Assembly: GCA_002700305.1 (NCBI GenBank)
Contig: PACZ01000024.1
Location: 186,001-250,000, forward strand
DNA length: 64,000 nucleotides
Origin: Hyphomonas sp.
Lineage (GTDB): Bacteria > Pseudomonadota > Alphaproteobacteria > Caulobacterales > Hyphomonadaceae
Direction of reading: 5' to 3'
Positions 4,750-30,886 of this stretch are shown piece by piece. Positions within the stretch are counted from its first letter, which is position 1, and each line of letters begins with the position of its first letter. Below the pieces are notes generated by a model. It was not told the DNA's origin and did not search any database. It saw only the letters and a program-made list of their open reading frames with translations. The position numbers were made by a program, and so were the translations under genes.

Positions 4750-6102
4750 ATGGACACGACCACCCGCCCCGCCCCGATCCGCCCGACGCAGCCGAAAGTC
4801 GGCATCGTCTCGCTTGGCTGCCCGAAAGCGCTCGTTGATTCCGAGCGTATCATCACGCGCCTGCGTGCCGAAGGCTACCAGATCGCCCCGGATTATTCCG
4901 GCGCGGACCTCGTTCTGGTGAACACCTGCGGCTTCCTCGACAGCGCCCGGGATGAGAGCCTGGAAGCCATTGGCGAAGCGATCGAAGCGAACGGCAAAGT
5001 GATCGTGACAGGGTGCCTTGGTGCCGAACCGGACGTCATCGAAAAAGCGCACCCCAAAGTGCTCGCGATTACGGGTCCGCATCAGTATGAGGCGGTGATG
5101 GATGCCGTGCATACGCATCTTACTCCGCCGCACAATCCGCATCTGGATCTGCTGCCTGAGGCTGGGCTGCGCCTCACGCCTCGCCATTACGCCTATCTGA
5201 AAATCTCCGAAGGCTGTAATAACCGCTGCAGTTTCTGCATCATCCCGAAGCTCCGCGGGGACCTCGTCTCCCGTCCGATCCACCACGTGCTGACCGAAGC
5301 CGAACAGCTTGTGAAAGCGGGCGTCAAAGAGCTCCTTGTTATCAGCCAGGATACGTCCGCTTACGGTCTCGATGTCCGCTACAAACCGGAGACCTGGCGC
5401 GGCACCGAATACGAGACCCGCTTCCTTGATCTGGCGAAGGGGCTCGGAAGCCTCGGCGTATGGACGCGGATGCACTATGTCTATCCCTACCCGCACGTCG
5501 ACGCGGTCATCCCGATGATGGCGGAAGGGCTGATCACGCCCTATCTTGACATCCCCTTCCAGCACGCCTCGGCGAATGTATTGAAAGCGATGAAGCGCCC
5601 GGCCAAGCAGGACAAGGTTCTGGAACGCATCCAGCAATGGCGCCGCGATGTGCCGGATCTGGCGATCCGCTCCACCTTCATTGTCGGCTTCCCGGGTGAG
5701 ACCGAAGAAGACTTTGAAATCCTGCTCGACTTCATCCGCGAAGCGAAGATCGATCGCGCCGGCTGCTTCCAGTATGAGAACGTCGCCCACGCTGACAGCC
5801 GCACTCTGCCAGATCACGTGCCGGATGACGTGAAAGAAGACCGTTGGCACCGCTTCATGCAGGTCCAGGCCGAAATCTCAGCCGCTCGTGCGGAAGCTCA
5901 GGTCGGTACGGTTCAGGACGTGATCGTCGATGGAGCTGATAAAGAAGAGCCTGGTATCATGATCGCCCGCACGAAGGCCGATGCGCCAGACGTCGACGCG
6001 GTCGTGTATCTGGACAACGCGACCCACCTGAAACCGGGTGACATCGTGCCGGCGAATATCACCGGCGCCGACGATTACGACCTTTACGCGACGCCGGCCT
6101 GA
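4750..6102 (+). CDS. rimO: ribosomal protein S12 methylthiotransferase RimO
   Basis: A 450-residue radical-SAM methylthiotransferase that adds a methylthio group to a conserved Asp of ribosomal protein S12. The N-terminal UPF0004 domain has three cluster cysteines (V-S-L-G-C, N-T-C-G-F, V-T-G-C). The radical-SAM CX3CX2C motif is C156-N-N-R-C160-S-F-C163. [13 protein letters not shown] marks the SAM domain, and the last 70 residues form a TRAM-like RNA-binding domain. The [12 protein letters not shown] variant is characteristic of RimO rather than MiaB. Its last 19 bases overlap the 3' end of the convergent gene. Confidence 0.95.
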
Positions 6103-12516: not shown

Positions 12517-14058
12517 ATGAGCGTGTGCACCACGATCATTGAAAACCCGCGCCTCCCGGTCAGCCTGGTGCTCTCCGAGAATGAGGTAAGAGTCGGCGTC
12601 ACAAACCAGACCGCACCTCCGGAAGCGACGGTTTTGCCCCCGATTTATCCGGAATGGCTCGGTGACCGGGCTTTCTCAGCCACCCATGGCGCCCGTTTCA
12701 ATTATGTCGTTGGTGAAATGGCTCGTGGTATCACCACGCCACGTATGGTTGTTGAAGCGGTTCGAGCCGGCTGCATCGGCTTCTACGGAAGCGCGGGGCT
12801 GCCGCTCGAAGAGATCGAACGCGGAATCCGTGAGATCAAAGCCGGGCTTTCGGAACATCAGATCAGCTGGGGCGCCAACCTAATCCATACGCCCCAACAA
12901 CCCGGGTACGAGGCGAGCGTTGTCGACCTGTTCCTGCGCGAAGGGGTCCGCAGGGTGTCTGCCTCCGCCTATATGCGCCTTTCCCCGGATATCGTCCGCT
13001 ACACTGCGCTGGGACTCGAGCGCGATGCGCAAGGCAAGATCCGTCGTTCCAATCACGTCTTCGCCAAGGTTTCACGCGCGGAAGTCGCCGAACAGTTTCT
13101 GGCCCCTGCGCCGGAAAAGATTCTGAAAGACCTCGTCAGTTCCGGAGCTATCTCCAAAGCGCAGGCGGAATTGGCGGCACTCGTCCCCGTTGCGGCCGAG
13201 ATCACAGCTGAAGCCGACAGCGGTGGGCACACCGACCGACGATCAGCCGCCCCGCTCTTTTCTTCCATTTGCGCCGCCCGCGACCGTGTGGCTGCAAAGA
13301 CTGGCATCGATCCAGATGCAGTCAGGATCGGACTGGCCGGAGGAATTGCCACCCCACACGCCGTTGCTGCCGCTTTCGGAATGGGTGCCGCATACGTCCT
13401 GACCGGATCGATCAACCAGGCCGCCGTTGAATCCGGTCTTTCTCTGCCAGGCCGACAAATGCTGGCGAAAGCCGGACCGGCGGACGTTGCAATGGCGCCT
13501 GCCGCTGACATGTTCGAGCAAGGCATTGAAGTACAGGTTCTGAAACGCGACACGCTCTTCGCAATGCGCGGAAAGAAGTTCCATCAGCTCTACAGATCGG
13601 GCGCTTCATTCGAAACGCTTGACGCAAAAGACCAGGCATGGGTCGAAGATGTACTCGGCGAGCCATTTGATGCCGCGTGGGCTGCAACGCGCGAATATAT
13701 CAGACGGGTAAATCCGAAAGAGGCAGACAAGGCCGAAAATGACGGCAACAAACGCCTGGCGCTGGTCGCACGCCGCTATCTGTTCTCCGGGGCCCAGCTG
13801 GCCCGCGAAGGTGATCCAGCACGGGTGACTGACTATCAGATCTGGTGCGGACCGGCCCAGGGCGCCTTCAATGAATGGGTCGCAGGCTCGTTCCTGGAAG
13901 ATATTGCCAATCGCACGGTTCAGCAGATTGCCTGGAACCTGATGGAAGGCGCTGCGCGGATCACGCGTGCGTCCCAGTTGAGAGCGCTTGGCGCGGCGGT
14001 TCCACCAACTGCCTTCAATTACGTCCCGCAACAGTTTTTAGAAACGGAACCTGTGTAA
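12517..14058 (+). CDS. pfaD: PfaD family enoyl reductase (PUFA-synthase-type)
   Basis: A 513-residue FMN enzyme of the nitronate-monooxygenase-like TIM-barrel fold, in the PfaD/FabI-like branch that serves as trans-acting enoyl reductase of PUFA and related iterative synthases. Diagnostic segments are the family motif A-D-S-G-G-H238-T-D-R-R, N-L-I-H-T-P and the G-L-A-G-G-I-A-T-P phosphate-binding loop. The C-terminal extension (W-C-G-P-A-Q-G-A-F-N-E-W) matches PfaD and is absent from ordinary nitronate monooxygenases. The ribosome site is weak. TAATG joins its stop to the pfaA start (1-bp overlap), implying translational coupling. Confidence 0.92.
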   Translation: MSVCTTIIENPRLPVSLVLSENEVRVGVTNQTAPPEATVLPPIYPEWLGDRAFSATHGARFNYVVGEMARGITTPRMVVEAVRAGCIGFYGSAGLPLEEIERGIREIKAGLSEHQISWGANLIHTPQQPGYEASVVDLFLREGVRRVSASAYMRLSPDIVRYTALGLERDAQGKIRRSNHVFAKVSRAEVAEQFLAPAPEKILKDLVSSGAISKAQAELAALVPVAAEITAEADSGGHTDRRSAAPLFSSICAARDRVAAKTGIDPDAVRIGLAGGIATPHAVAAAFGMGAAYVLTGSINQAAVESGLSLPGRQMLAKAGPADVAMAPAADMFEQGIEVQVLKRDTLFAMRGKKFHQLYRSGASFETLDAKDQAWVEDVLGEPFDAAWAATREYIRRVNPKEADKAENDGNKRLALVARRYLFSGAQLAREGDPARVTDYQIWCGPAQGAFNEWVAGSFLEDIANRTVQQIAWNLMEGAARITRASQLRALGAAVPPTAFNYVPQQFLETEPV

Positions 14059-17000
14059 TGGCCAAACCGAGTGCCGCTCCGATTGCAATCGTTGGCCTGG
14101 GGGCCGTCTTCCCCGGCCGGGGCGACGTAACGGGTTTCTGGCGGGACCTGTTTGAAGGCAGCGACCTCATCACGGATGTTCCGCCAACGCACTGGTTGAT
14201 CGACGACTATTACGATGAAGACCCCAAGACAAAGGATCGCACATATGGCCGCCGAGGCGGCTTCATCGATCCTCTGGCATTCGATCCATTGTATTTTGGA
14301 ATTCCCCCAAAAGCCATGGAGGGAACCGACACCGCCCAACTGCTTGCACTGATCGCGGCCCAGATGACGCTCGAAGATATTGAGCGGGATTCCGGCGGCA
14401 TGATCGACAAGTCCCGGACAAGTATTGTCCTGGGTGTTGCTTCGGCCACAGAGATGACGGCTCACATGGCGGGCCGATTGCAGCGACCCGCCTGGGTGAA
14501 CGCCATGCGTCAGGCCGGTCTCGCAGAGAGCCAGGTTCAGGACATTGCCGCCCGAATTTCAGATCACTATGTCGACTGGCAGGAAGCAACATTTCCCGGC
14601 CTGCTTGGCAATGTGATTGCCGGACGGATTGCGAACCGGTTTGACCTGACCGGCAGCAACTATGTCACCGACGCAGCCTGCGCCTCAAGCCTGTCTGCGC
14701 TTCAGATTGCCTTGCACGAACTCCGGTCCGGGGACAGCGACACAGTCCTGACCGGCGGCGTCGATGCGCTGAATGACATCCTGATGTACATGTGTTTCTC
14801 GAAAACACCTGCCCTGTCGACCTCAGGAGACTGCCGCCCGTTTTCGACGCGCGCCGACGGCACAATGCTTGGCGAAGGGATAGGCATGCTGGCCCTGCGC
14901 AGGCTGGACGATGCCGAACGCGACGGGAACCATATTTACGCTCTGATCAAGGGGCTCGGAGGTGCGTCGGATGGGAAGGGAACAGCGATTTACAGCCCCG
15001 TTCCTCATGGACAGGCACGCGCACTGAAACGCGCTTATGATCAGGCTGGGTACAATCCTTCCACGGTCGATTTGGTTGAAGCACATGGCACCGGGACGAA
15101 AGCTGGCGACAAAGCGGAAATAGAGGGTCTGCACCTTGTGTTCGGCGAATATGCAGCCGACGAGCCATGGTGTGCCGTCGGTTCCGTCAAGGCACAGATC
15201 GGCCACACCAAGGCGGCCGCCGGCTCTGCCAGTCTGATCAAGGTAACTCACGCCTTAAGCCGCAAAATCCTGCCTCCGACGATAAAAGTCGAAGAGCCCG
15301 CCGATGCGATCAAAACCAGTCCTGTCTTTTATCTCAACACCGAAGCGCGACCTTGGATTTCACCCAAGAAGCGTCCGCGGCGCGCATCCGTCAGTTCATT
15401 CGGTTTTGGCGGTAGCAATTTTCACGTCACGCTGGAAGAGTACACCGGACCGAATGCTGCGAAGCCCTGGCGTTCGTTGCCATCAGAACTGTTCCTCTTC
15501 TCCGCAGATTCACCAGAGACGCTTGCAGCAAAAATAGAAAGCTCGTTGCCTGTCCCGACAGAGAGCGAACTCGCCTACAGGGCGTGGCAATCGCAAGATG
15601 CATTTGATTGCAAGGCGCCTGCCCGCGCTGCGATTGTCGCGTGCAACCCGGCGGAGCTTTCCGAGAAAGCTTCCGCAATTGTGGATGCACTCAGGCGTGG
15701 AGAGATCGGTAAGCGCCCTCTCAAGATGGGATGCCATGTCTCCCTCGATCCGCCGACTGACGATAAAGTTGCCTTCATGTTTTCGGGGCAAGGAAGCCAG
15801 TATGTCGGGATGGGCTCTGATCTTGCAATGGGCTTTCCAGCAGCCCGCTCCGTCTGGGACCAGGCTGCGGGCCACAAACGCGCAGGTGATTTGAAGCTGC
15901 ATATGCTGGCCTTTCCGCCCGCAGCTTTTGATCAGGTTGAACATGGCGACCAGACAGATCGCCTGAAAGCCATGGAGCATGCGCAGCCCGCAATTGCTGC
16001 GGTCGCCTTGGCTCAACTGTCCTTGCTTGAGCAGGCTGGTATCACAGCCGACATGACAGCCGGACATAGTTTCGGAGAGATCATGGCTCTCCACTATGGA
16101 GGCACGTTCAACCTGGCCAGCGCGCTGACTGCGGCTGTCGAACGCGGCGCCCTGATGGCCGAAGCAGCCAGTTCCACCGCGGGGTCCATGATGGCCGTCC
16201 AGGCAGGCGCCGAGGACGTTGGAGGTCTATTACAGCGCTTTAGTCCCGATCTTGTACTTGCGAACGATAACGGCCCTAGTCAGATTGTCCTTTCCGGTCC
16301 ATCGGGCATCATCCGTGAAGCGATCGAGACCTGCACACAAGAAGGGCTCAAAGCTCGCGCGCTGCCTGTCGCGACGGCTTTCCATTCGCAGATAGTCGCG
16401 TCAGCGGTGAAGCCTTTTGAAGCGGCCCTCACAAAACTCCGTCCACGTAAGCCAAGCTTGCCCGTATACGCAAACGCAACGGCGAAACCCTACACATGTA
16501 CCGCCGCTCAAATGCCGACGGAAATTGCTGGCCAGCTGGAATCTCCGGTCAGGTTCCGTGAACTGGTTGAGCAGATGTATCGCGACGGCGCCAGAACCTT
16601 CATCGAAGTCGGCCCGGGATCAGTCGTTTCGGGTCTGGTGGACGACGTTCTCGGCTCAAGACCGCATACCGCCTATGCACTCGACAACAAACGCGTAAAC
16701 GGCGTGACCCAGTTTTTGTCTACGCTTGGAGCACTCTCGGTGTCAGGCCTGGCGATCAATTTCGCCGGCTTGTTCGATGACCTGCCTGCCGAGCCTCCAA
16801 GACCGGCGCCCCCGAAACATGCCGTCATGATTTCAGGTGCAAACTACGGCAAGCCTTACCCACCCCCAGAAGGTGCCGCAGGCCGCGCGGCGCCAAATCC
16901 GGAAAAATCCAGTTCGCCGACCGAAACGAAACCGGTCGCGCAACCTCCCCGAACTGCTCAGCCTGAATTCAAATCCTCACCGTCCTTCTCTGCCTCAAGC

Positions 17001-17993
17001 TCCCAGGAACCAGCCATGCCGGATTCATCTTACTCCTCGTTCCCGTCCCTTCCTCCTTATGAGCCGTCGGGGTCTGCGGGTGAAACTCCGGCGGAACGGG
17101 TCATGATGGAAGTCTCTCGCCGCCACGCTGATTTCCTGAAGATTGCTTCATCCGCTCACGCCGCTTATCTGAACACGGTCGCGCAGGTCATGAGTGGCAA
17201 AGGCGCGGTACAGAACGAGCCGGCCAAAGCACTACCGGAGCCGCCCGCAAGCCCTGCACCGGTACCTCGTCAGGTGGAACCTGTAGCCGCATCCGCCGCG
17301 CCGACCCCGTATCCTGTTGCGACCCGACCTGCTCCGCCTGCTGTGGCCCCTGCTTCAACGCCTGTATCGAAGCCGGCAGCGTTCTCATCGCCCATTGCAG
17401 ACGCAGCGCCCCCTCCACCGGCAAAACCAGCGCGAACTGAGCAGGTCGATGCTGTCGCTCTGGTGCGGGCCATCATCGCGGACAAGACCGGCTATCCGGA
17501 AGACATGCTTGACGCAGATATGGATCTGGAAGGCGAACTGGGCGTCGACTCCATCAAACAAGTGGAGATCCTTTCCACGCTGCGCGAGGAGCTTCCCGAC
17601 CTGCCTGAGATTGATCCGGAGCGCCTCGTTGAATTGCGGACCATTTCCGCAATTGCCGAAATGGTATCGGGAGCCGCTGGCGCATCTACGCCCCCACCCG
17701 TAGCCAAACCCACCCCTCAGCAGGTACCTGCGTCCACTGCACCATCGCCTGCCTCGGGAAACGGCAGCATAACTACTGACATTGTCAGGGATCTGATTGC
17801 CGACAAAACGGGTTATCCCAGCGATATGCTGGAAGATGATATGGACCTTGAAGGCGAGCTTGGCGTCGACTCAATTAAACAAGTAGAAATTCTTTCCGCG
17901 CTGCGCGATCAACACCCAGACTTGCCGGAAGTTGACCCAGAGGTTCTGGTGGAGCTCCGCACGATCAGAAAGATCGCTGATTTTTTTGCATAA
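14058..17993 (+). CDS. pfaA: PfaA-like polyketide/fatty acid synthase, KS-AT-ACP-ACP
   Basis: A 1311-residue iterative synthase subunit. The ketosynthase (about 5-440) has D-A-A-C208-A-S-S, E-A-H-G-T-G-T and G-H-T-K-A-A-A-G. The acyltransferase (about 570-890) has F-S-G-Q-G-S-Q, G-H-S671-F-G and A-F-H-S. A Pro/Ala-rich linker contains a short helical R-R-H-A-D-F-L segment. Two ACPs have phosphopantetheine serines S1165 and S1272 in near-identical G-V-D-S-I-K-Q-V-E. Canonical PfaA continues into a ketoreductase; here the frame stops at TAA 17991, four codons after a T7 run, and KR lies in the -1 frame. Two ACPs is few for a PUFA synthase. The start overlaps the pfaD stop. Confidence 0.93.
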   Translation: MAKPSAAPIAIVGLGAVFPGRGDVTGFWRDLFEGSDLITDVPPTHWLIDDYYDEDPKTKDRTYGRRGGFIDPLAFDPLYFGIPPKAMEGTDTAQLLALIAAQMTLEDIERDSGGMIDKSRTSIVLGVASATEMTAHMAGRLQRPAWVNAMRQAGLAESQVQDIAARISDHYVDWQEATFPGLLGNVIAGRIANRFDLTGSNYVTDAACASSLSALQIALHELRSGDSDTVLTGGVDALNDILMYMCFSKTPALSTSGDCRPFSTRADGTMLGEGIGMLALRRLDDAERDGNHIYALIKGLGGASDGKGTAIYSPVPHGQARALKRAYDQAGYNPSTVDLVEAHGTGTKAGDKAEIEGLHLVFGEYAADEPWCAVGSVKAQIGHTKAAAGSASLIKVTHALSRKILPPTIKVEEPADAIKTSPVFYLNTEARPWISPKKRPRRASVSSFGFGGSNFHVTLEEYTGPNAAKPWRSLPSELFLFSADSPETLAAKIESSLPVPTESELAYRAWQSQDAFDCKAPARAAIVACNPAELSEKASAIVDALRRGEIGKRPLKMGCHVSLDPPTDDKVAFMFSGQGSQYVGMGSDLAMGFPAARSVWDQAAGHKRAGDLKLHMLAFPPAAFDQVEHGDQTDRLKAMEHAQPAIAAVALAQLSLLEQAGITADMTAGHSFGEIMALHYGGTFNLASALTAAVERGALMAEAASSTAGSMMAVQAGAEDVGGLLQRFSPDLVLANDNGPSQIVLSGPSGIIREAIETCTQEGLKARALPVATAFHSQIVASAVKPFEAALTKLRPRKPSLPVYANATAKPYTCTAAQMPTEIAGQLESPVRFRELVEQMYRDGARTFIEVGPGSVVSGLVDDVLGSRPHTAYALDNKRVNGVTQFLSTLGALSVSGLAINFAGLFDDLPAEPPRPAPPKHAVMISGANYGKPYPPPEGAAGRAAPNPEKSSSPTETKPVAQPPRTAQPEFKSSPSFSASSSQEPAMPDSSYSSFPSLPPYEPSGSAGETPAERVMMEVSRRHADFLKIASSAHAAYLNTVAQVMSGKGAVQNEPAKALPEPPASPAPVPRQVEPVAASAAPTPYPVATRPAPPAVAPASTPVSKPAAFSSPIADAAPPPPAKPARTEQVDAVALVRAIIADKTGYPEDMLDADMDLEGELGVDSIKQVEILSTLREELPDLPEIDPERLVELRTISAIAEMVSGAAGASTPPPVAKPTPQQVPASTAPSPASGNGSITTDIVRDLIADKTGYPSDMLEDDMDLEGELGVDSIKQVEILSALRDQHPDLPEVDPEVLVELRTIRKIADFFA

Positions 17994-18026
17994 GGGGCGG
18001 AGCGCGCGACACAGCGATCCGTCCCT
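17981..18026 (+). promoter_or_regulatory. candidate -1 frameshift signal joining pfaA to the KR frame
   Basis: The last codons of pfaA read GAT TTT TTT GCA TAA, so the T7 run (17981-17987) is in phase as a T TTT TTT slippery heptamer. After a 5-base spacer comes a stem AGGGGCGGA (17993-18001) with TCCGTCCCT (18018-18026): nine pairs including one G-U, 16-base loop. A further hairpin with a 7-bp stem is at 18051-18069. The -1 frame is open from the run through to the KR. This is the standard layout of programmed -1 frameshifting. It is inferred, not demonstrated; transcript slippage or a miscounted homopolymer would look the same. Confidence 0.6.
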
Positions 18027-18109
18027 CTGGGACAATCGGAGAGTTTAAACCGTACGGAAACGCCGTACGCGTACTTGATTCTGTTCTGGTCGCGCCATTC
18101 GGTTCTTCA

Positions 18110-19441
18110 GTGCCACGAACAAACCTCGGCCCGGTCTGTATTACGAATGCCGCGCCGGAATATGCCGAAGCACTCCGAGAAAAAATTCAGGCTTCAGGAG
18201 GCACCGCAGTTATTGTTGATGTGCCTGAAGGCACCGGAACGTTCGTCCTGACCGAGGGCCTATCAGCACAACCGCCAGCAGAACGGCATTATTTTGCGCT
18301 ACAAGCCATGCTGGCTGCGAAAGCTGGCTCCAAAACAGTCCTGTTGAATTTCGCTTCCTCTCCCTCGCGAACGGAAATCGGGGGCACAACCGGACTTTGT
18401 CGCACAATCAGGCTGGAGCATCCAGGAACTGAGGCCTACTCCATATCCATTGCAGACGACAGGAACCCGGGTTCCCTGGCGTCCAAAATCATGCAGGCCA
18501 TCTCCCTTTCTGACAGTGACTACTCGCTTCGGGAAGACGGGATATATCTGGATATGCCGGACGAAGACCTTGCCCCGCCCGAAGTTCCCGAACAAAAGCC
18601 TGATCGCCAATCCGTCTGGCTTGTCTCTGGTGGCGCCCGGGGCGTTACGGCGGACTGCACGATCGAACTCGCCAGGCGAACAGGTGGTACATTTGTTCTG
18701 CTCGGACGATCGGACGTTACACCCTGGCCTGAATGGCTGCCGCTGGAAAGAGACCTAAAAGCCCTCCGCGGAGCGCTTGCACGAAACGCGAGCCGCCCCG
18801 GCATGCCCCGCAAGCCAATGGAGATAGACCATTACGCCCGCAGACTTCTGGCAGGTCTGGAAATCACCGACACGATCTCGTCCATCGAACAATCCGGTGC
18901 CAAAGCGCGCTACATTCAAGTGGATATTGGAAATGCAGACCAGCTCCGCGCCACTCTTGAAAACGTCCAACATGAACTGGGCAGCATAACCGGGCTTGTT
19001 CATGGCGCCGGTGTTCTGGCGGATGGAACGGCTGAACAGCTCCGTCTGGAAGACTTCCAACGAGTCTTTGGTCCAAAAGTATTTGGACTGGAGAACATTC
19101 TGGCGTCTCTGGATGTGAATTCATTGTCGCACATCGCCCTGTTTTCATCCGCATCTGCCGTATTTGGAAACGAAGGACAGGCAAATTATGCGGCCGCCAA
19201 TGAGTGGCTCAATAATGTGTCACTGCAGCTGGCGCGCGAACATCCGGCCACTCAAGTGAAAGCCTTTTGCTGGGGACCATGGCAAGGTGGCATGGTCGAT
19301 GAAGCACTGGCTCGTATGTTTACCGAACGCGGGATCAGCCTCATCAGCAAATCCGAAGGCGCAAGAATTTTTGCCGATCAGCTGCTTCAGTCTCCACATG
19401 ACCATATCCGCTTTGTCGTCGGCGACGATTGGGGTGGGTGA
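18110..19441 (+). CDS. PfaA-type ketoreductase (KR), probably expressed as a -1 frameshift extension of pfaA
   Basis: From GTG 18110 this gives 443 residues with an N-terminal structural subdomain (about 1-160) and a catalytic KR: S-G-G-A-R-G-V-T-A for NADPH and S-S-A-S-A-V-F-G...N-Y-A-A-A-N with catalytic Ser/Tyr/Asn. It reduces the beta-keto intermediate. No ribosome site precedes GTG 18110, and no ATG, GTG or TTG occurs in frame between it and the pfaA T7 run. The frame stays open back to 17981, and its translation looks protein-like. With a -1 shift at 17981-17987 the fusion would be about 1794 residues, KS-AT-ACP-ACP-KR, the normal PfaA order. It ends in TGATG, coupled to the next gene. 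Confidence 0.85.
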   Translation: MPRTNLGPVCITNAAPEYAEALREKIQASGGTAVIVDVPEGTGTFVLTEGLSAQPPAERHYFALQAMLAAKAGSKTVLLNFASSPSRTEIGGTTGLCRTIRLEHPGTEAYSISIADDRNPGSLASKIMQAISLSDSDYSLREDGIYLDMPDEDLAPPEVPEQKPDRQSVWLVSGGARGVTADCTIELARRTGGTFVLLGRSDVTPWPEWLPLERDLKALRGALARNASRPGMPRKPMEIDHYARRLLAGLEITDTISSIEQSGAKARYIQVDIGNADQLRATLENVQHELGSITGLVHGAGVLADGTAEQLRLEDFQRVFGPKVFGLENILASLDVNSLSHIALFSSASAVFGNEGQANYAAANEWLNNVSLQLAREHPATQVKAFCWGPWQGGMVDEALARMFTERGISLISKSEGARIFADQLLQSPHDHIRFVVGDDWGG

Positions 19442-22400
19442 TGAAGGCATTCGAACCTGTCGCGATCGTTGGGCAGGGGTGTGTTCTGCCTGGAGCCAAT
19501 ACACCAGGTAAACTGACCCAGCTGGTTATGGAAAACAGGACGGTCTACGGCACGGTCACGCCTGAGGAGTTAGGACTATACAGAAGCGCAGCCCAGGGAC
19601 GTTCTTTTGTATCCGGACGTATCAAAGGGTTCGAACAGCTCTTCGACCCTGACCGGCTCAAGCTCAAATCGGTGAACCCAGACGAACTGGATCCCGTTTG
19701 CAGCTGGCCGTTACACGCTGCGCTCGACGCCTGGGAAGACGCTGACCGCCCAAAAGTTCGGCCGACATCAATGGGTGTGTTTGTCGCCAACCTCTCTTAT
19801 CCATCTACCAGTCATGTGAAGTTTGCCTCTCAGCTATGGCAACATCAGGAAACGCCGCCGGCGCATTCCGTTTTAAATTCCGCGCTGCCCGCCAAGCTGA
19901 TCGCGGAATCGCTTCGCTCAACCGGCCCCTGCTTTTCACTGGACGCGGCCTGCGCATCGTCACTGTACGTCATCGACATTGCCTGCGGAAAGCTGAACGC
20001 GCGGCAGATCGACTGCGCCGTAATTGCAGGCGTGAACGCGGCAGACAACCTGATCCTCCATATTGGCTTTGAGGCGCTGAACGCCCTCAGCCCCACAGGC
20101 CGCTCCCGTCCTTTCGTCAAAGGCGCCGATGGACTCATTCCGTCTGAAGGGGCAGCAGCGCTTGTGTTGAAGCGCCTGACGGATGTTGAGCCCGGAGAAA
20201 AAGTCTACGGCGTAATTCGCGGCAGCGGTCTGTCCAATGACGGGCGCCGCAAAGGACTGCTTGCCCCTGCTACCGAAGGTCAGGTCGACGCAATGCGACG
20301 GGGGCTAGAATGCAGCGGGATAGATCCGCACACGATCCAGTATGTTGAGTGCCACGCGACAGGCACCGCCGTCGGCGATAGCGTGGAGGTCTCGTCTGTC
20401 AGATCCGTCTACAAAGACGTCGAACATCTGTCTTTGGGGTCTCTGAAGGCAAATACCGGTCATCTTATCACGGTTGCCGGCCTTGCCAGCGTGCTGAAAC
20501 TTACCGGCGCCATGGCAGAAGAGCGTATACCGCCAACGCCCCTGGACGGTCAGTTGCTTGACCCGTTGCAGGACAGTGGACTGGACGTTCCGACGAGTCC
20601 CTCAAACTGGGAAACCTCCGGAGCGCCGCGCCGAGCTGCCATCAGCAATTTCGGATTTGGTGGAAACAATGCCCACCTGATTCTGGAGGAGTATCGCCCT
20701 TCGACACGAAAGGGCCGTAGCCGGGCGATCAAGACACCTCCTGCTCCGGATATCGTTATCTGTGCCGCATCGCTGATGGCGGGCAGTGATTGCACAACTG
20801 ATAGCGTTCTCCGGCGCCTTATGAACCACCCTGTCAAACGGCCCGAAAAGCTTGAAGAGATCGGCGCCAATGCGGTGGATGCCCGTTCTCCGCCCAAGGA
20901 CCTGGCGCAGGCAGAACCTCAGCAACTCGCCATCCTCTCAACGGTCAGTGAAGCCCTGAGCCGCGTCGGCTCCTTCGAGGCTGAAACGACAGGCGTGTTT
21001 GCCGGCATGGCTTGTGCTGCAGACTCCGCGAGATGGGCGTTGAGGGAACGTGCAACAGCCAATCCGGCGCAATCTGCAGACGATATCGCGCCTAAACTGG
21101 ATTCCGCCGCTGTTCTTGGCGCGATGGCCAACATGACGGCGAACAGGATTACCTTCGCACAAGACATCCGCGGGATGGGCTTCTCGGTGTCTGCCGGTCC
21201 TGCGAGCGGGTTGGCGGCGCTTGATCTCGCAATTGACGCGCTGATCTCCGGACGCCTGTCCACCGCTATCGTTGCGGCTGCAGATTTTGCCACTGAGCCC
21301 GTCCGTGCCCGAGCGCTTGCGGATATTCGCGGCCTTGAGCATCCCGGAGACGCCTCCGCGGCCCTGGTTCTGAAACGGCGCGAAGATGCTGAAGCGGCGG
21401 GAGACCCCATCCTTGCCACCGTAAAACCGGTGGATTGGAAAAACAGGAAGGCCCGATCGACTCCAGGCCTGTTTCCTGCGGTCTACGGTCAGGCACCTGA
21501 TGCAGAACCTCTGGCGGAGGTCGCGCTGGAGTGTCTGCTGAATGCTCACAGCCATATGCAGACGGACGCTGGCGCCATACCGGCCCTCTCTTTCAAGAGA
21601 AAGAAGCGCCATGTTTCAGTTTCGGCCGGACTGGCAAATGCAGGTTCGTCGGTTTCCTTTGAGCTTGAGCCTCCTCAGGTCCTGCCGGATCCTCTCCGGC
21701 CAACGCCATTTATGTTCCATGCCGCTGCCAGCGGCCGGAGGAAACTTGCAGAAGCACTGAATGCCGGCCGAGAAGGTGGCCGGGGCGGCTACCGGATCGC
21801 ACTCGTTGCAACGAGTGAGGATGAACTGGACGAGCTTCGCGCTACAGCCGCCCAGTCCTTGGCGAGGGACCAGCTTCCTTCCGGTGAAGGCATCCATTTT
21901 GGAGAAGGCAAGCCTGACGGTGAGCTGGCATTCATGTTTACCGGCTCAGCCGCCGTCTACCCGCGCATGGCAAGACGGCTGTTGATGGCATTTCCTGAGG
22001 TCCGGAAAGCCCTCTCCAAATTGTTGCGGGCTGAAGAGATTGCCGCCCTGCTGTCTCGTTCGAACCTGACTGAGTTCGAACAGTTGTGCGCTGGCACGCT
22101 GGTCAGTCAGGCGCACGCGATCCTGTGGCTTGATTTGCTCAAAGTGAAACCCGATGCCGCCATCGGCCTGTCATTGGGTGAGTCCAACGCACTGTTTTCG
22201 TTTGGATACTGGAAAGACCCGGGGGCCCTCCTGGATGAAATATCCGAAGCCGCAATGTATGAGCGGCATATTGGCGGCGCGTTCGAGACAGCCAAACAAG
22301 CCTGGGGCCCAAATGTCCCGTCAGACTGGACCAATTGGCGGCTGCAGGCGCCCGTCGAGCAGGTTAAACAAGCGCTCGAACGGCACCCGGGCGTCGAGAT

Positions 22401-25400
22401 CACCATCATCTACACAGATGACGACTGCATGATCGGTGGCCCCGCAGACGCCTGCAAGCAGCTATGCGATGAATTTGGCAAACAGGCTGGCGTGAAGATG
22501 AACCAGCACCTGATCGTGCATGCGAAGGCCATGAGGCCATTTGCGGACACGTGGCGGCGTCTGCATACGCGGGAGGTGCACCGGGGCTCTGGGGTGCGGC
22601 TATACGCCAATGCTATCCATGCGGCGTACGAGCCTGAGACAGCGGTCGTCGCGGACATGCTCACGCGGCAGGCGGTGGATACGGTTGATTTCCCCAAAAC
22701 GGTCCGCCAGGCGTGGAAGGACGGCGTGCGCACCTTCCTGGAGCTCGGTCCACGGGACACATTGACGACCAGCCTTTCCAAGACACTGAAAGATAAGCCT
22801 TTTAAGGCTATTTCCACGGACAGGATCGAGGCGTCCGACCTGGGCCAGGTCGCCCATGCGGCAGCCTTCCTCTACGCCGATGGCCGAGACATAGACCTCG
22901 AACCCCTGCGCCAAACCCTTGCTGCTGCAAGGAAAAACGAGACCGTTCCGCGCCGCAAATGGAACGTCACCAGACCGGTACCTTACCCCATGCCCAAGAT
23001 CGCCGAAGCCCCGCCAGAACCTGTCCGGAACGTTCTTCCGCATGCGCCCACGCTGCGCATACCCGACTATGCCATGACTATAGCGGACCAGGTCATGATC
23101 CCGGCCGGACCAGAAAATGCTCCCAAGACGGGCAAATGTGTCGAACCGCCCCGCAAAGTGACCAGCGGAACGGCACCGCTCCGACTGCGTACGCCGACCG
23201 GCCCGACACGTGACCGGGGCGCGATTGAGGCATCGACCCGTGGCAAGATGTCGGAATTCTTCGGACCTGATTTTTCCGATCAGGACAGTTTCGAGCGGCA
23301 GGTCCGGCTGCCGGCTCCGCCTCTCCTGCTTGTCGACCGGATCACCGGAATCGATGCGGCACCCCAGGAAGATGCGGCCGGAATTATCTGGACCGAAACC
23401 GACCTCTCCAACCATACCGACTTTGTTCAAGACGGGCGCGTCCGCCCGGGGCCGCTGATCGAATGCGGCCAGGCGGATCTGACCCTGATTGGCTGGATGG
23501 GCGCTGACCTGCAAAACAGGGATGAGCGCGTCTACCGCCTGCTCGGTTGTGAAATCACATTCCATGAAGGCGGACTGCCCCTCGATGCGGACACGCTGAA
23601 ATTCCAGATTGAGATTACCGGCCACGCCGAGCTTGCCGGGGTCCGGATGTTCTTCTTCCAGTACGACTGCCGCACAGAGGATCGCCTCGCCTTTTCCGTA
23701 CGCAACGGACAGGCTGGCTTTTTCACGGACGACGAACTCAACAACAGCAAGGGCGTCATCTGGGACGCTACCAAAGACGCGCCTTCGACAGCCACGCCTA
23801 CCGACTTCACCCCTCAGCGTGTCACGGAGAAACGCAAATTCACGGCCGCGGACGTCAACGCGTTCCGCAAGGGTGACGCCTTTGCGTGTTTCGGGGCGGG
23901 CTTCGAGCTTTGCGCGGCCCACTCCAATCCCCCTCATATTCCCGACGGAAAACTCGCCCTTTTCGACGAGGTGATTGCCTTTGACCCGCAAGGCGGGCCC
24001 TGGAAACGGGGCTACCTCCGCGCGCGGGCCGCAACGCCCGCAAGTAGCTGGTTCTATGACGGCCACTTCCACAAAGACCCCTGCATGCCCGGCACACTTA
24101 TGGCGGAAGCCGCGGTCCAGACACTCGAATTCTTTGCGGCAGCTGTAGGCCTTACGGTTGAACGGGATGGATATGTGTTTGAACCCATTCCGGAACACAC
24201 GGCCAAGTTCGTTTGCCGCGGACAGGTTGTTCCGGACAAGGATCATGATGTGACCTATGAAGTCTTCATCGATGAAATCATCGATGGGGAAACGCCGGAA
24301 ATCTACGCGTCCCTTCTTGCGCGCTGCGATGGGCACAAGGTCTTCCACTGCCCGCGTTTCGGCATCCGCCTGCGCCGCAACTGGCCCGCGGCGCGCATTG
24401 ACGCAAATCCGCTTCTGATCGGCCCCGAACGGGAAAGCCGCGGCGACCATGCCGCCTTGCTGGACTGCGCAAACGGCGCCCCCTCTGCCGCTTTCGGCGA
24501 GATGTATCGCCCCTATGATGATCAGGGGAATGTACCGCGCCTGCCTCAGCCGCCTTACCACTTCATTTCCCGTGTGACATCCGTCAGCACACGCCCGGCT
24601 GAAGAAACACTCGGTGCGACGATGACGGCGGAATACGATATACCCGCCGATGCCTGGTATTTCGATGATAATCTCAACGGCACGATGCCGTTTGCCGTCC
24701 TGTGCGAGATTGCCCTTCAGCCATGCGGCTGGCTGGCCAGCCATTCCGGCTTTGCCCTTGTTGGCACCTTGCGGTTCCGCAACCTTGAAGGCGATGGCTT
24801 CCTCCACATGGAAGTCGGCCGCAATGACGATATGCTGAAGGTCCGCAGCACACTGACGAATATCGCCAAGGTCGGTCCGATGACCCTTGTGTCTTTTGAC
24901 GTCGAGGTCATTACAGGCGATGGGCGTCAGGTTCTGGATCTGAAGACGCAATTTGGCTTCTTCCCGCCGGCATCGCTTGTGCGGCAGGCGGGGCTCCCTG
25001 CCAAACCTCACTTCACATCCGCATTCGACCTTCGCCCTGCGCCAATCCAGATAGATATGCAGGAACCGCTCGCTTCCGGCCGGATGAAAATGATCGATGA
25101 GATTGACTTCTGCGACCCGAACGGCGGTGAAGCCGGCCTCGGCCTGATCCGCGCGCAACAGCATGTCGATCCGTATGCGTGGTACTTCAAGGCGCACTTT
25201 TATCAGGACCCTGTCCAGCCCGGCTCGCTGGGGCTCGATGCATTGGTCCAGGCGCTGACGCAACTCGTCTGGAAGAAGGGCCTGCAGCAAGGCATGACCC
25301 ACCCCCACCTCACAACCCTGGCGCCCAATGCGCCCATGAAGTGGAGTTATCGCGGCCAGGTCACACCGGAACGCAAGACTGTGACGAGCGTGATGGAAAT

Positions 25401-25521
25401 CCTGAGCATCGAAGACCGGGAAGACGACATTCTGATCACCGCCCGGGGCAGCCTCTGGCGCGATGGGCTTCGTGTCTATGAAGTCGGCCCGATGAGCGTT
25501 TCGTTGAAGGACCTTGGCTAG
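19441..25521 (+). CDS. pfaC: PfaC-like synthase with fused AT: KS-CLF-AT-DH-DH
   Basis: A 2026-residue protein. KS (about 1-420) has D-A-A-C171-A-S-S, C-H-A-T-G-T and N-T-G-H. The chain-length-factor domain (about 430-760) aligns Pro587 (S-A-G-P-A-S-G) with the lost active Cys. A PfaB-like acyltransferase (about 770-1150) has G-L-S911-L-G-E. After a linker come four hotdog folds: the 1st and 3rd lack the catalytic His, while the 2nd (F-Y-D-G-H1542-F-H-K-D-P) and 4th (Y-F-K-A-H1919-F-Y-Q-D-P) keep the FabA-type H...D-P-x-x-P-G. That makes two double-hotdog dehydratases/isomerases. In the classical marine system the AT is a separate PfaB; here it is fused between CLF and DH. The start overlaps the KR stop. 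Confidence 0.92.
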   Translation: MKAFEPVAIVGQGCVLPGANTPGKLTQLVMENRTVYGTVTPEELGLYRSAAQGRSFVSGRIKGFEQLFDPDRLKLKSVNPDELDPVCSWPLHAALDAWEDADRPKVRPTSMGVFVANLSYPSTSHVKFASQLWQHQETPPAHSVLNSALPAKLIAESLRSTGPCFSLDAACASSLYVIDIACGKLNARQIDCAVIAGVNAADNLILHIGFEALNALSPTGRSRPFVKGADGLIPSEGAAALVLKRLTDVEPGEKVYGVIRGSGLSNDGRRKGLLAPATEGQVDAMRRGLECSGIDPHTIQYVECHATGTAVGDSVEVSSVRSVYKDVEHLSLGSLKANTGHLITVAGLASVLKLTGAMAEERIPPTPLDGQLLDPLQDSGLDVPTSPSNWETSGAPRRAAISNFGFGGNNAHLILEEYRPSTRKGRSRAIKTPPAPDIVICAASLMAGSDCTTDSVLRRLMNHPVKRPEKLEEIGANAVDARSPPKDLAQAEPQQLAILSTVSEALSRVGSFEAETTGVFAGMACAADSARWALRERATANPAQSADDIAPKLDSAAVLGAMANMTANRITFAQDIRGMGFSVSAGPASGLAALDLAIDALISGRLSTAIVAAADFATEPVRARALADIRGLEHPGDASAALVLKRREDAEAAGDPILATVKPVDWKNRKARSTPGLFPAVYGQAPDAEPLAEVALECLLNAHSHMQTDAGAIPALSFKRKKRHVSVSAGLANAGSSVSFELEPPQVLPDPLRPTPFMFHAAASGRRKLAEALNAGREGGRGGYRIALVATSEDELDELRATAAQSLARDQLPSGEGIHFGEGKPDGELAFMFTGSAAVYPRMARRLLMAFPEVRKALSKLLRAEEIAALLSRSNLTEFEQLCAGTLVSQAHAILWLDLLKVKPDAAIGLSLGESNALFSFGYWKDPGALLDEISEAAMYERHIGGAFETAKQAWGPNVPSDWTNWRLQAPVEQVKQALERHPGVEITIIYTDDDCMIGGPADACKQLCDEFGKQAGVKMNQHLIVHAKAMRPFADTWRRLHTREVHRGSGVRLYANAIHAAYEPETAVVADMLTRQAVDTVDFPKTVRQAWKDGVRTFLELGPRDTLTTSLSKTLKDKPFKAISTDRIEASDLGQVAHAAAFLYADGRDIDLEPLRQTLAAARKNETVPRRKWNVTRPVPYPMPKIAEAPPEPVRNVLPHAPTLRIPDYAMTIADQVMIPAGPENAPKTGKCVEPPRKVTSGTAPLRLRTPTGPTRDRGAIEASTRGKMSEFFGPDFSDQDSFERQVRLPAPPLLLVDRITGIDAAPQEDAAGIIWTETDLSNHTDFVQDGRVRPGPLIECGQADLTLIGWMGADLQNRDERVYRLLGCEITFHEGGLPLDADTLKFQIEITGHAELAGVRMFFFQYDCRTEDRLAFSVRNGQAGFFTDDELNNSKGVIWDATKDAPSTATPTDFTPQRVTEKRKFTAADVNAFRKGDAFACFGAGFELCAAHSNPPHIPDGKLALFDEVIAFDPQGGPWKRGYLRARAATPASSWFYDGHFHKDPCMPGTLMAEAAVQTLEFFAAAVGLTVERDGYVFEPIPEHTAKFVCRGQVVPDKDHDVTYEVFIDEIIDGETPEIYASLLARCDGHKVFHCPRFGIRLRRNWPAARIDANPLLIGPERESRGDHAALLDCANGAPSAAFGEMYRPYDDQGNVPRLPQPPYHFISRVTSVSTRPAEETLGATMTAEYDIPADAWYFDDNLNGTMPFAVLCEIALQPCGWLASHSGFALVGTLRFRNLEGDGFLHMEVGRNDDMLKVRSTLTNIAKVGPMTLVSFDVEVITGDGRQVLDLKTQFGFFPPASLVRQAGLPAKPHFTSAFDLRPAPIQIDMQEPLASGRMKMIDEIDFCDPNGGEAGLGLIRAQQHVDPYAWYFKAHFYQDPVQPGSLGLDALVQALTQLVWKKGLQQGMTHPHLTTLAPNAPMKWSYRGQVTPERKTVTSVMEILSIEDREDDILITARGSLWRDGLRVYEVGPMSVSLKDLG

Positions 25522-26192
25522 ACTGACATGGCGCGGCTGAGGACGAGCTCCCCGGTCTCAAAAATCTCAACCCGCAGAGTCAGGCCATCGTGCGCAAGGC
25601 TAAACTGGTCCTGCTGACCCGAGATGACTTCCCGAGGTAGGTGTATCCTTGGGGCGCCCCCTTTCAGCCCCGTTCCGGCGGACTTCAAGATCGCCTCCTT
25701 GGCGGCCCAACACCGGAAGAAACCGGCAAGGCCGCTCACCCCTTCGACAGCGCTACGGATGTCCCTGGCCTCGACTTCGGAGGAAAGCATGGGAAGCATC
25801 GCCTGCCAGCCAATGGGCCGGACCGTTTCGACATCCACACCCACCTTTCCCGACCGCACCAGGGCCAGCGCATTGGCTGTCCCGCTGTCTGAAAAGCTGA
25901 CCGAGACGTCGGGAAAATCCGGAAGGAAAGGACGTCCCTCCGGGTCATGGGCAATTGCAATGTCCGCGGCAGGTTCCGCCAGCAAATGAGACAGGAGTTC
26001 CCGCCGCTGGGAAAGATTACGGCCAAGCTGGTCGCGCTTTTCATCCGATACCAGACGCGAAATGCGCACTTTGTCGGCGCCGGAGAGTACAGCTTCGTTC
26101 AGCCGGCCCGACGCAGAATGCCAGAACCACGCCCCCTCCGCCCCCGGCTCAGCCGGGCCGCACTTCGGGAAAGGTCTGAAGTCCTGCAACAT
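25518..26192 (-). CDS. Sfp-type 4'-phosphopantetheinyl transferase (PfaE-like)
   Basis: A 224-residue Sfp-like transferase that moves phosphopantetheine from CoA onto ACP serines. The two diagnostic motifs are G118-V-D-V-E122 (Mg2+ binding) and W162-A-A-K-E-A167. The N-terminal F-S-D-S-G motif (P3-like substrate region) is also present. It converges on pfaC with a 4-bp overlap, so although transcribed separately it is very likely the activator of the two PfaA ACPs, the role of PfaE elsewhere. No strong ribosome site is visible. Confidence 0.9.
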   Translation of the reverse strand: MLQDFRPFPKCGPAEPGAEGAWFWHSASGRLNEAVLSGADKVRISRLVSDEKRDQLGRNLSQRRELLSHLLAEPAADIAIAHDPEGRPFLPDFPDVSVSFSDSGTANALALVRSGKVGVDVETVRPIGWQAMLPMLSSEVEARDIRSAVEGVSGLAGFFRCWAAKEAILKSAGTGLKGGAPRIHLPREVISGQQDQFSLAHDGLTLRVEIFETGELVLSRAMSV

Positions 26193-29506: not shown

Positions 29507-30886
29507 ATGACCGAACAACGTACCATCCAGAAGGTCCTCATCGCGAACCGCGGTGAGATCGCGCTGCGTATTCACCGCGCTTGCAAGGAAATGGGCCTGC
29601 AGACCGTCGTCGTGCACTCAGAGGCCGACCGGGACGCCATGGCCGTCCGCCTGGCAGATGAAAGCGTCTGCATCGGGCCGCCCCCCTCCTCGCAGAGCTA
29701 TCTCAAGAAATCCCAGATCCTGGCAGCAGCCGAGATCACAGGAGCGGATGCCATCCATCCAGGCTACGGCTTCCTGTCCGAGAACGCCCAGTTCGCGGAA
29801 ATGGTCGAAGCCCACGGCCTCGCCTTTATCGGCCCGACGGCTGAGCATATCCGGGTCATGGGCGACAAGATCGCGGCCAAGCAGGCCATGATCGATGCCG
29901 GCGTCCCCTGCGTACCGGGATCGGAAGGCGCAATCTCCTCAATCTCCGACGCCAAGAAGGCAGCCAAGAAAATCGGGTTCCCGGTTCTGGTGAAAGCGTC
30001 TGCAGGCGGCGGCGGCCGCGGCATGAAACTCGCCAAGACCGAAGCCGACCTTGAGAACGCTGTCCGGACCGCAAAGACAGAAGCAAAAGCTGCTTTTGGT
30101 GACGATGCCGTCTATCTCGAGAAATACCTTCAGGGCCCCCGGCACATCGAAGTGCAGGTGATCGCGGATACCCATGGCAATGTTGCGCACCTCTGGGAGC
30201 GCGATTGCTCCCTGCAGCGCCGCAATCAGAAAGTATTCGAGGAGGCCCCGTCCCCGGCTCTCACTCAGGCCCAGCGCGAAGAGATCGGTACGATCTGCGC
30301 CAAGGCCATGGAGAAGCTCGGCTATCGCGGCGCCGGTACGATCGAGTTCCTCTATGAAGACGGCCGGTTCTATTTCATTGAAATGAACACCCGCCTGCAG
30401 GTCGAACACCCGGTAACCGAAATGATCACCGGCATCGATCTCGTGCGTGAACAGATCCGCATCGCGGAAGGCAAGAAACTGTCATTCTCTCAGGATGACG
30501 TCCTGCTCGTCGGCCATGCCATCGAATGCCGGATCAATGCCGAACATCCGGAGACGTTCGTCCCCTCTCCGGGCCTGATCTCTGACTTCCATGCTCCGGG
30601 CGGCCCCGATGTGCGCCTGGATAGCGCGGCCTATGCGGGGTACCGGATTCCGCCGCACTATGACTCCCTGATCGGGAAGCTCATCGTGCACGGCCGTACA
30701 CGCCGGGAATGCCTGATGCGTCTTCGCCGTGCCCTGTCGGAAATGGTTGTGGGCGGAGTTTACACGACGCTCGATCTGCACCGACGCCTCGTCGAAAACG
30801 AAGACGTCCAGAACGGTGACTACAATATTCACTGGCTGGAAAAATTCCTCGCCGAGAACAAGATCGCTCCGGAAGAAAAAGCCTAG
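29507..30886 (+). CDS. accC: acetyl-CoA carboxylase biotin carboxylase
   Basis: A 459-residue ATP-grasp enzyme carboxylating biotin on AccB. It has [15 protein letters not shown] at the start, the glycine-rich ATP loop [23 protein letters not shown] and [12 protein letters not shown] with the metal-binding and catalytic residues. Length is typical. Stop is at 30886, before aat. Confidence 0.97.

Follow-up and report, generated by a model that had tools for sequence, protein, structure and literature searches.

Two described cases of programmed −1 ribosomal frameshifting (−1 PRF) in bacteria resemble the probable one reported here. In chlD, a magnesium chelatase gene, a conserved −1 frameshift in a biosynthetic enzyme gives two products, and fused proteins exist elsewhere (PMC9227772, PMC3711429). 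In dnaX, a slippery heptamer, A_AAA_AAG in Escherichia coli, leads to the isoforms tau and gamma with a common N-terminus (PMC5009743, PMC3711429). Among polyunsaturated fatty acid (PUFA)-type synthases, split genes were described by Shulse and Allen: Type D clusters possess a pfaA1 [KS-AT-ACP5], a separate pfaA2 [KR] and a fused pfaBC, and Type H clusters combine a split pfaA with a fused pfaBC (PMC3098273). The words 'frameshift' and 'Hyphomonas' do not occur in the available text of that paper. Here we analysed a 64,000-nucleotide (nt) stretch (hereafter the window) of a 3.5 Mb Hyphomonas sp. genome (assembly GCA_002700305.1, contig PACZ01000024.1, positions 186,001 to 250,000 of the forward strand). 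In it, the pfaA gene and the ketoreductase (KR) of a PUFA-type synthase lie in different frames, and their junction is very probably a selected −1 PRF site giving both PfaA without KR and a PfaA-KR fusion.

Like chlD, pfaA-KR belongs to a biosynthetic enzyme, carries a conserved frameshift site with two predicted products and has fused counterparts elsewhere. It differs in its enzyme and domains; the tested chlD sites are A runs for which reporter data exist, whereas pfaA-KR is known from sequence. With dnaX it shares a slippery heptamer and two predicted isoforms with a common N-terminus. By contrast, the frameshifted form is short in dnaX and long in pfaA-KR, and the heptamer here is T_TTT_TT[T/C]. 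It is likewise split as in Type D and Type H clusters, next to a fused pfaBC. The ordinary fused PfaA (KS-AT-ACPn-KR), for example in genomes G261 (2043 aa) and G213 (1982 aa) of the order, has the same domains in the same order; unlike pfaA-KR, it is read in one continuous frame, and the proteins of G261 and G213 have no Phe-Phe at the matching place between ACP and KR.

Literature searches, judged by titles and the starts of abstracts, found no frameshift in a PUFA-type or other megasynthase, in line with the initial annotation of the window, which knew of none in a PUFA-type synthase; an unnamed database or supplementary entry is possible. With its conserved −1 signal, this PUFA-type synthase gene would be a new kind of gene for a mechanism that is already known. 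The bacterial genes with −1 frameshifts gain a well supported cellular member and, as far as the searches show, a first case in a fatty-acid or polyketide megasynthase. A 2013 catalogue picked clusters with programmed frameshifts by seven A-rich heptamers (PMC3711429). T-rich sites fail this filter, and therefore more of them may be waiting.

A slippery junction between pfaA and KR is conserved in Hyphomonadaceae

In the window, the junction reads GAT TTT TTT GCA TAA and is followed by a GGGGCGG...CCGTCCC hairpin, with KR in the −1 frame (Table 1). This frame is open from the slippery run through to the KR stop at 19441. Its first ATG, GTG or TTG is GTG 18110 (codon 44), with no Shine-Dalgarno (SD)-like 4-mer 5' of it. 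A 9-bp stem (17993-18001/18018-18026) is present in the window, and the core conserved among relatives is 17994-18000/18019-18025. The initial annotation had described this layout exactly as to the phase of the T run, the pfaA stop, the −1 frame of KR and the main stem coordinates. It was equally correct that the −1 frame is open to KR with no start before GTG 18110 and none with a ribosome site. Its reading of the junction as a programmed −1 frameshift is supported by relatives, stem covariation and linker coding.

Table 1. Features of the pfaA/KR junction and of the surrounding gene cluster (positions in the window)
Feature	Position	Strand	Evidence or remark
TGA closing the −1 (KR) frame, touching the slippery run	17978..17980	+	Position not shared by all relatives
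Slippery heptamer T_TTT_TTT, phased GA[T TTT TTT]	17981..17987	+	
6-nt spacer GCA TAA including the 0-frame stop (pfaA stop 17991-17993)	17988..17993	+	
Stimulatory hairpin (predicted): outer stem 17994-18000/18019-18025, inner 3-bp stem 18003-18005/18014-18016	17994..18025	+	Minimum free energy (MFE) folds, z-scan, covariation, covariance model R1
pfaA 0-frame, KS-AT-ACP-ACP, C-terminus ...IADFFA-stop; predicted KR-less product	14058..17993	+	Pfam KS, AT, two ACP stretches
KR, −1 frame, predicted to be reached by frameshifting	17987..19441	+	Pfam KR 3.5e-33, linker coding signal, AlphaFold model
pfaD-type gene (enoyl reductase-like), 5' of pfaA	12517..14058	+	Pfam FabD_helical_ins 1.7e-15, NMO weak
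pfaBC-type gene: KS, second KS-like, AT, two FabA-type dehydratases	19441..25521	+	Pfam; AT below cut-off
4'-phosphopantetheinyl transferase (PPTase; pfaE-like), convergent with the operon	25518..26192	-	Pfam ACPS 1e-8

We searched 105 genomes of the family for KR (E<=1e-60) and found it in 57, distributed over 3 of 10 genera, in frames that never exceed 619 aa. The junction was parsed in 55 of them by locating only the last ACP and its stop codon; G015 and G037 were left out, their contigs ending before the junction. All 55 junctions have T_TTT_TT[T/C] and, after exactly 3 nt, a stop with GGG directly behind it, a signature far beyond chance. They include those of Hyphomonas jannaschiana VP2, Hyphomonas sp. 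CY54-11-8 and two Hyphomonadaceae metagenome-assembled genomes. The heptamer is T7 in 38 loci and T6C in 17, with no other form, and this label changes at least three times on a tree of 52 KR rows and two fused outgroups. The stop varies as well (TGA 21, TAG 19, TAA 15). KR lies in the −1 frame in 54/55 junctions, locus L024 (G003) being the exception. Thus relatives retain the run and the stem and show an identical pfaA/KR split, and neither eight Ts nor a continuous frame, either of which would have undone the frameshift proposal, occurs at any of the 55 junctions.

Homopolymer runs are error-prone, so a sequencing error or a pseudogene might be suspected. The relatives refute an error: the same junction recurs in 55/55 assemblies, the single-contig genomes G163, G036, G016, G019, G020, G040 and G052 among them. 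Against a pseudogene, the KR frame is unbroken in every locus except L024, within the sequence available (L089 and L090 are cut). We regard the chance of either as practically nil.

Codon usage at the heptamer was also compared with that of the same loci. The first Phe codon is TTT in all 55, as against 33% of Phe codons overall, and the base before it is always T (53 GAT, one GGT and one AAT), whereas GAT makes up 40% of Asp codons. The codons immediately 5' of the heptamer vary at third positions. Because TTT and the preceding T are invariant even where Asp has been replaced, the heptamer is conserved as nucleotide sequence.

A run of seven Ts in 38 of the loci might also point to transcriptional slippage, in which RNA polymerase would insert an extra U there, so that the mRNA itself carries the altered frame. 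We consider this very unlikely, given that the other 17 loci have six Ts and then C. For transcriptional realignment, Tn with n>8 is given (PMC3711429), a length that neither T7 nor T6C reaches. Moreover, a hairpin at a fixed 6 nt 3' of the run would be untranscribed while the polymerase is still on it.

An RNA stem follows the stop codon

The RNA downstream of the run was analysed by folding, shuffling and covariation. In the MFE structures of 53 of the 55 loci, the GGG behind the stop is paired to the 3' arm as expected, in one of three registers (40, 11 and 2 loci). The exceptions are L024 and L037. A z-score scan was run over 51 distinct junctions (L024 included) in 40-nt segments from -300 to +300, with 40 shuffles each. 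Excess structure was confined to one of 31 segments, that starting after the stop (mean z -2.95, 84% below -2), and the remaining 30 had mean z between -0.80 and +0.28.

For covariation, the 55 loci were reduced to 46 rows by dropping identical 58-nt junctions and leaving out L024. Two alignments, A3 with 37 rows and A4 with 9, served for counting base pairs, because in the 46-row alignment A2 the shorter subgroup had its 3' arm out of place by 3 nt. Among the 37 gapless rows, both sides had changed in 10/14 pairs, a value reached by 2/500 shuffles. Double-changed cells numbered 60 against 22.5 +/- 4.4 in shuffles, none of 500 being as high, and sliding the stem partner lowered every measure.

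A covariance model, R1, was then built from the 37-row group, whose own rows match by construction. At E<=0.01 it found 55/57 KR-bearing genomes of the family and 0/48 others, and both misses were cut contigs. Weaker matches marked a second site in G020 (0.024) and G059 (0.094). The shorter-stem subgroup, which lies outside the training set and includes the window, was found at E 5.5e-8 to 7.1e-4 (window, 6.8e-4). Searching 17500-19500 of the window against Rfam at E<=1 matched no known RNA family.

Two further elements named in the initial annotation exist in the window and are unsupported as signals. The second hairpin at 18051-18069 lies at an offset without excess structure over the 51 distinct junctions. 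The loop segment GCGCGAC and the downstream GTCGCGC, suggested to form a pseudoknot, are perfectly complementary in the window; across the 55 loci, loop-to-downstream matches barely exceed those in shuffled sequences (on average 5.05 against 4.84 bases) in a crude longest-exact-match test. A pseudoknot is an optional stimulator of −1 PRF.

The linker evolves as −1-frame coding sequence

Substitutions were counted in closely related pairs, with each locus used once. From +51 to +126, changes at the three codon positions of the −1 frame were 43/19/87 (14 pairs, p 4e-11). The shorter interval from +51 to +87 gave 31/21/45 (18 pairs, p 0.011), and a stricter identity cut gave 10/8/20 (13 pairs, p 0.038). 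In the stem region, the counts were 30/30/39. The linker before KR therefore evolves as −1-frame coding sequence. Frame openness alone is weaker evidence than this substitution pattern: between +15 and +87 the KR frame is free of stops in 54/54 loci, as are the two remaining frames in 44 and 1 of them.

An AlphaFold model of the −1 product, based on 5 sequences and of moderate quality (mean pLDDT 65, pTM 0.56), was used only to place the start of the fold. Residues 1-48 have very low confidence and are predicted to be disordered, and the fold starts near residue 50. In 6/54 loci the first ATG, GTG or TTG of the KR frame falls at codon 67-110, where a start would cut into the KR domain because the predicted fold begins at about residue 50. 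A start codon with an SD-like 4-mer occurs within the first 60 codons in 3/54 loci.

Some observations weigh against a selected frameshift signal. T6C uses the only other Phe codon, so the alternation of T and C alone does not prove a constraint from slipping. The stem is altered in L037. L024 (~1500) lacks 32 nt that L014 has (counted by eye). With this deletion the 3' stem arm is lost and KR no longer lies in the −1 frame, reflecting either a broken synthase or an assembly error. Further pair types among the 37 rows do not exceed those in shuffles (25 vs 23.8, 174/500), and the covariation shuffles take no account of relatedness among rows. The 9-row subgroup of the window, 3 nt shorter, is 98% paired with no double changes, and thus shows no covariation of its own. 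Finally, GTG accounts for 22/41 Val codons at a conserved V-R column (49 loci parsed) against 27% over the whole of KR, though these GTGs come without ribosome sites.

This last point also favours a KR made as a separate protein, whose translation would begin either at a start codon of its own, in the window GTG 18110, or by reinitiation once ribosomes have reached the pfaA stop. The position of GTG 18110 just 5' of the predicted KR fold would suit such a start, and Psychroflexus torquis is described as having separate pfaA1 and pfaA2 [KR] genes (PMC3098273). Yet GTG 18110 is missing from L004, a 93%-identical relative whose first start is codon 110, and none of the 24 start-like codons of the V-R column has an SD-like 4-mer. 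A separate KR conflicts, too, with the −1 coding of the linker and would leave the stem and heptamer without a role. With no conserved start and ribosome sites rare, the sequences contradict an independently started KR, the outcome on which the original frameshift proposal could have failed, and we judge it extremely improbable.

A fused gene is probably ancestral

Outside the family, the order includes five KR-bearing genomes, and in all of them KR is part of a frame 1982-2836 aa long; the ACP and KR motifs of L091-L093 are read in a single frame. Because these relatives carry KR in a long continuous frame, the fused PfaA-KR is probably the ancestral form. Most simply, an ancestral PfaA-KR would have been split in the Hyphomonadaceae lineage, with frameshifting still joining the two parts.

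Such an origin leads to an alternative in which the frameshift is real and only PfaA-KR matters, the KR-less PfaA being an unused by-product and the site left over from an old frameshift mutation that a slip signal had rescued. The long frames of the five order-level relatives, with their probably ancestral fusion, would agree with this, and correction of indels by frameshifting has been named 'Savior' (PMC5009743). On the other hand, the site is kept at 55/55 junctions in three genera although single indels could restore a continuous frame, and the stop always comes one codon after the heptamer. We take a by-product or relic to be a serious alternative, if a somewhat doubtful one.

Parallel cases were sought in part of the short KR frames from class and phylum searches. 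In the phylum sample outside the family (E<=1e-70), 13/22 rows lie in frames >1,900 aa (counted by eye); of the nine short-frame rows, four stop where the contig ends, N occurs in one and the frame changes in four. L100, L104, L105 and L106 run to the contig end, and L099 (G1109) contains a stretch of N. In L101 (G436) the frame changes between two ACPs. In L096 (G796, ~5274-5610), pfaA and a −1-frame KR overlap and no convincing heptamer is present, possibly an overlap in which KR has its own start.

In L097 (G830, 5211-5220) and L098 (G886:C16, a second copy, 5139-5148), a −1 shift at an A10 run, in the same phase in both, separates pfaA from KR, and this run is the only A or T run of at least 9 in each ~7-kb locus. 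The two belong to different families, both distant from that of the window. Another KR match of G886 lies in a 2352-aa frame. KR is found in 6/74 genomes of the G830 family, in which G830 is the only listed member of its genus; the G796 genus and the G886 family have 1 genome each. As cases from single genomes, L097 and L098 are a lead: either the same joint has been recoded independently in them or the runs are homopolymer errors, and recoding at the ACP-KR joint may have arisen more than once.

A model for the production of two PfaA forms

The heptamer, its phase and its spacing, the conserved RNA stem, the selected −1 coding and the lack of a conserved KR start are observed; the slip itself, slipping by both tRNAs, its efficiency, a coupling to pfaBC and any role for the KR-less form are inference. 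A ribosome would decode GAU UUU UUU with tRNA-Phe in both the P and A sites while being held by the hairpin 6 nt 3' of the heptamer. Both tRNAs would then re-pair one base back on UUU UUU, as either heptamer form permits. A 6-nt spacing followed by a hairpin is a typical layout and suits a paused ribosome. In E. coli assays, H_HH.U_UU.Y motifs were among the most efficient heptamers (PMC4066793). Without a slip, the ribosome would decode one further codon, reach the stop and release PfaA as KS-AT-ACP-ACP. After a slip, it would translate a flexible linker, ~48 residues long, and then the ketoreductase, giving PfaA-KR with the usual PfaA architecture.

One-base stop/start overlaps flank pfaA-KR, as previously annotated, with the pfaD stop and pfaA ATG at 14058 and the KR stop and pfaBC ATG at 19441, which suggests translational coupling along the operon. 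Slipped ribosomes reaching the KR stop may reinitiate on pfaBC. Of the 52 loci that include the KR end, 38 have an ATG or GTG sharing 1 or 4 bases with the KR stop, and frameshift frequency may for this reason feed pfaBC translation. It is plausible that the frameshift sets the ratio of reductase to synthase. A more tentative idea, which we think rather unlikely as a whole, is that KR-less PfaA is a working subunit and the slip ratio sets how often the iterative synthase reduces the beta-keto group, as well as the amount of pfaBC product.

If programmed frameshifting at this junction is true, gene callers that start KR at the first GTG or ATG would yield a false protein, and heterologous expression of the cluster would require the slip to work in the host. 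It would also offer a simple route to ask whether the ratio of KR-bearing to KR-less PfaA controls the lipid made.

The surrounding cluster and a neighbouring gene

The cluster appears to be a PUFA-type synthase by domain content and neighbours. By Pfam, a PfaA-type set of KS, AT, tandem ACP and KR adjoins pfaD, pfaBC and a PPTase, with KR available only via the predicted frameshift. The pfaA open reading frame is open from 13875, and its start at ATG 14058 was taken from the overlap with the pfaD stop. Further 3' of the cluster, a biotin carboxylase-like gene is located at 29507-30886; it possibly supplies malonyl-CoA or is simply a housekeeping copy.

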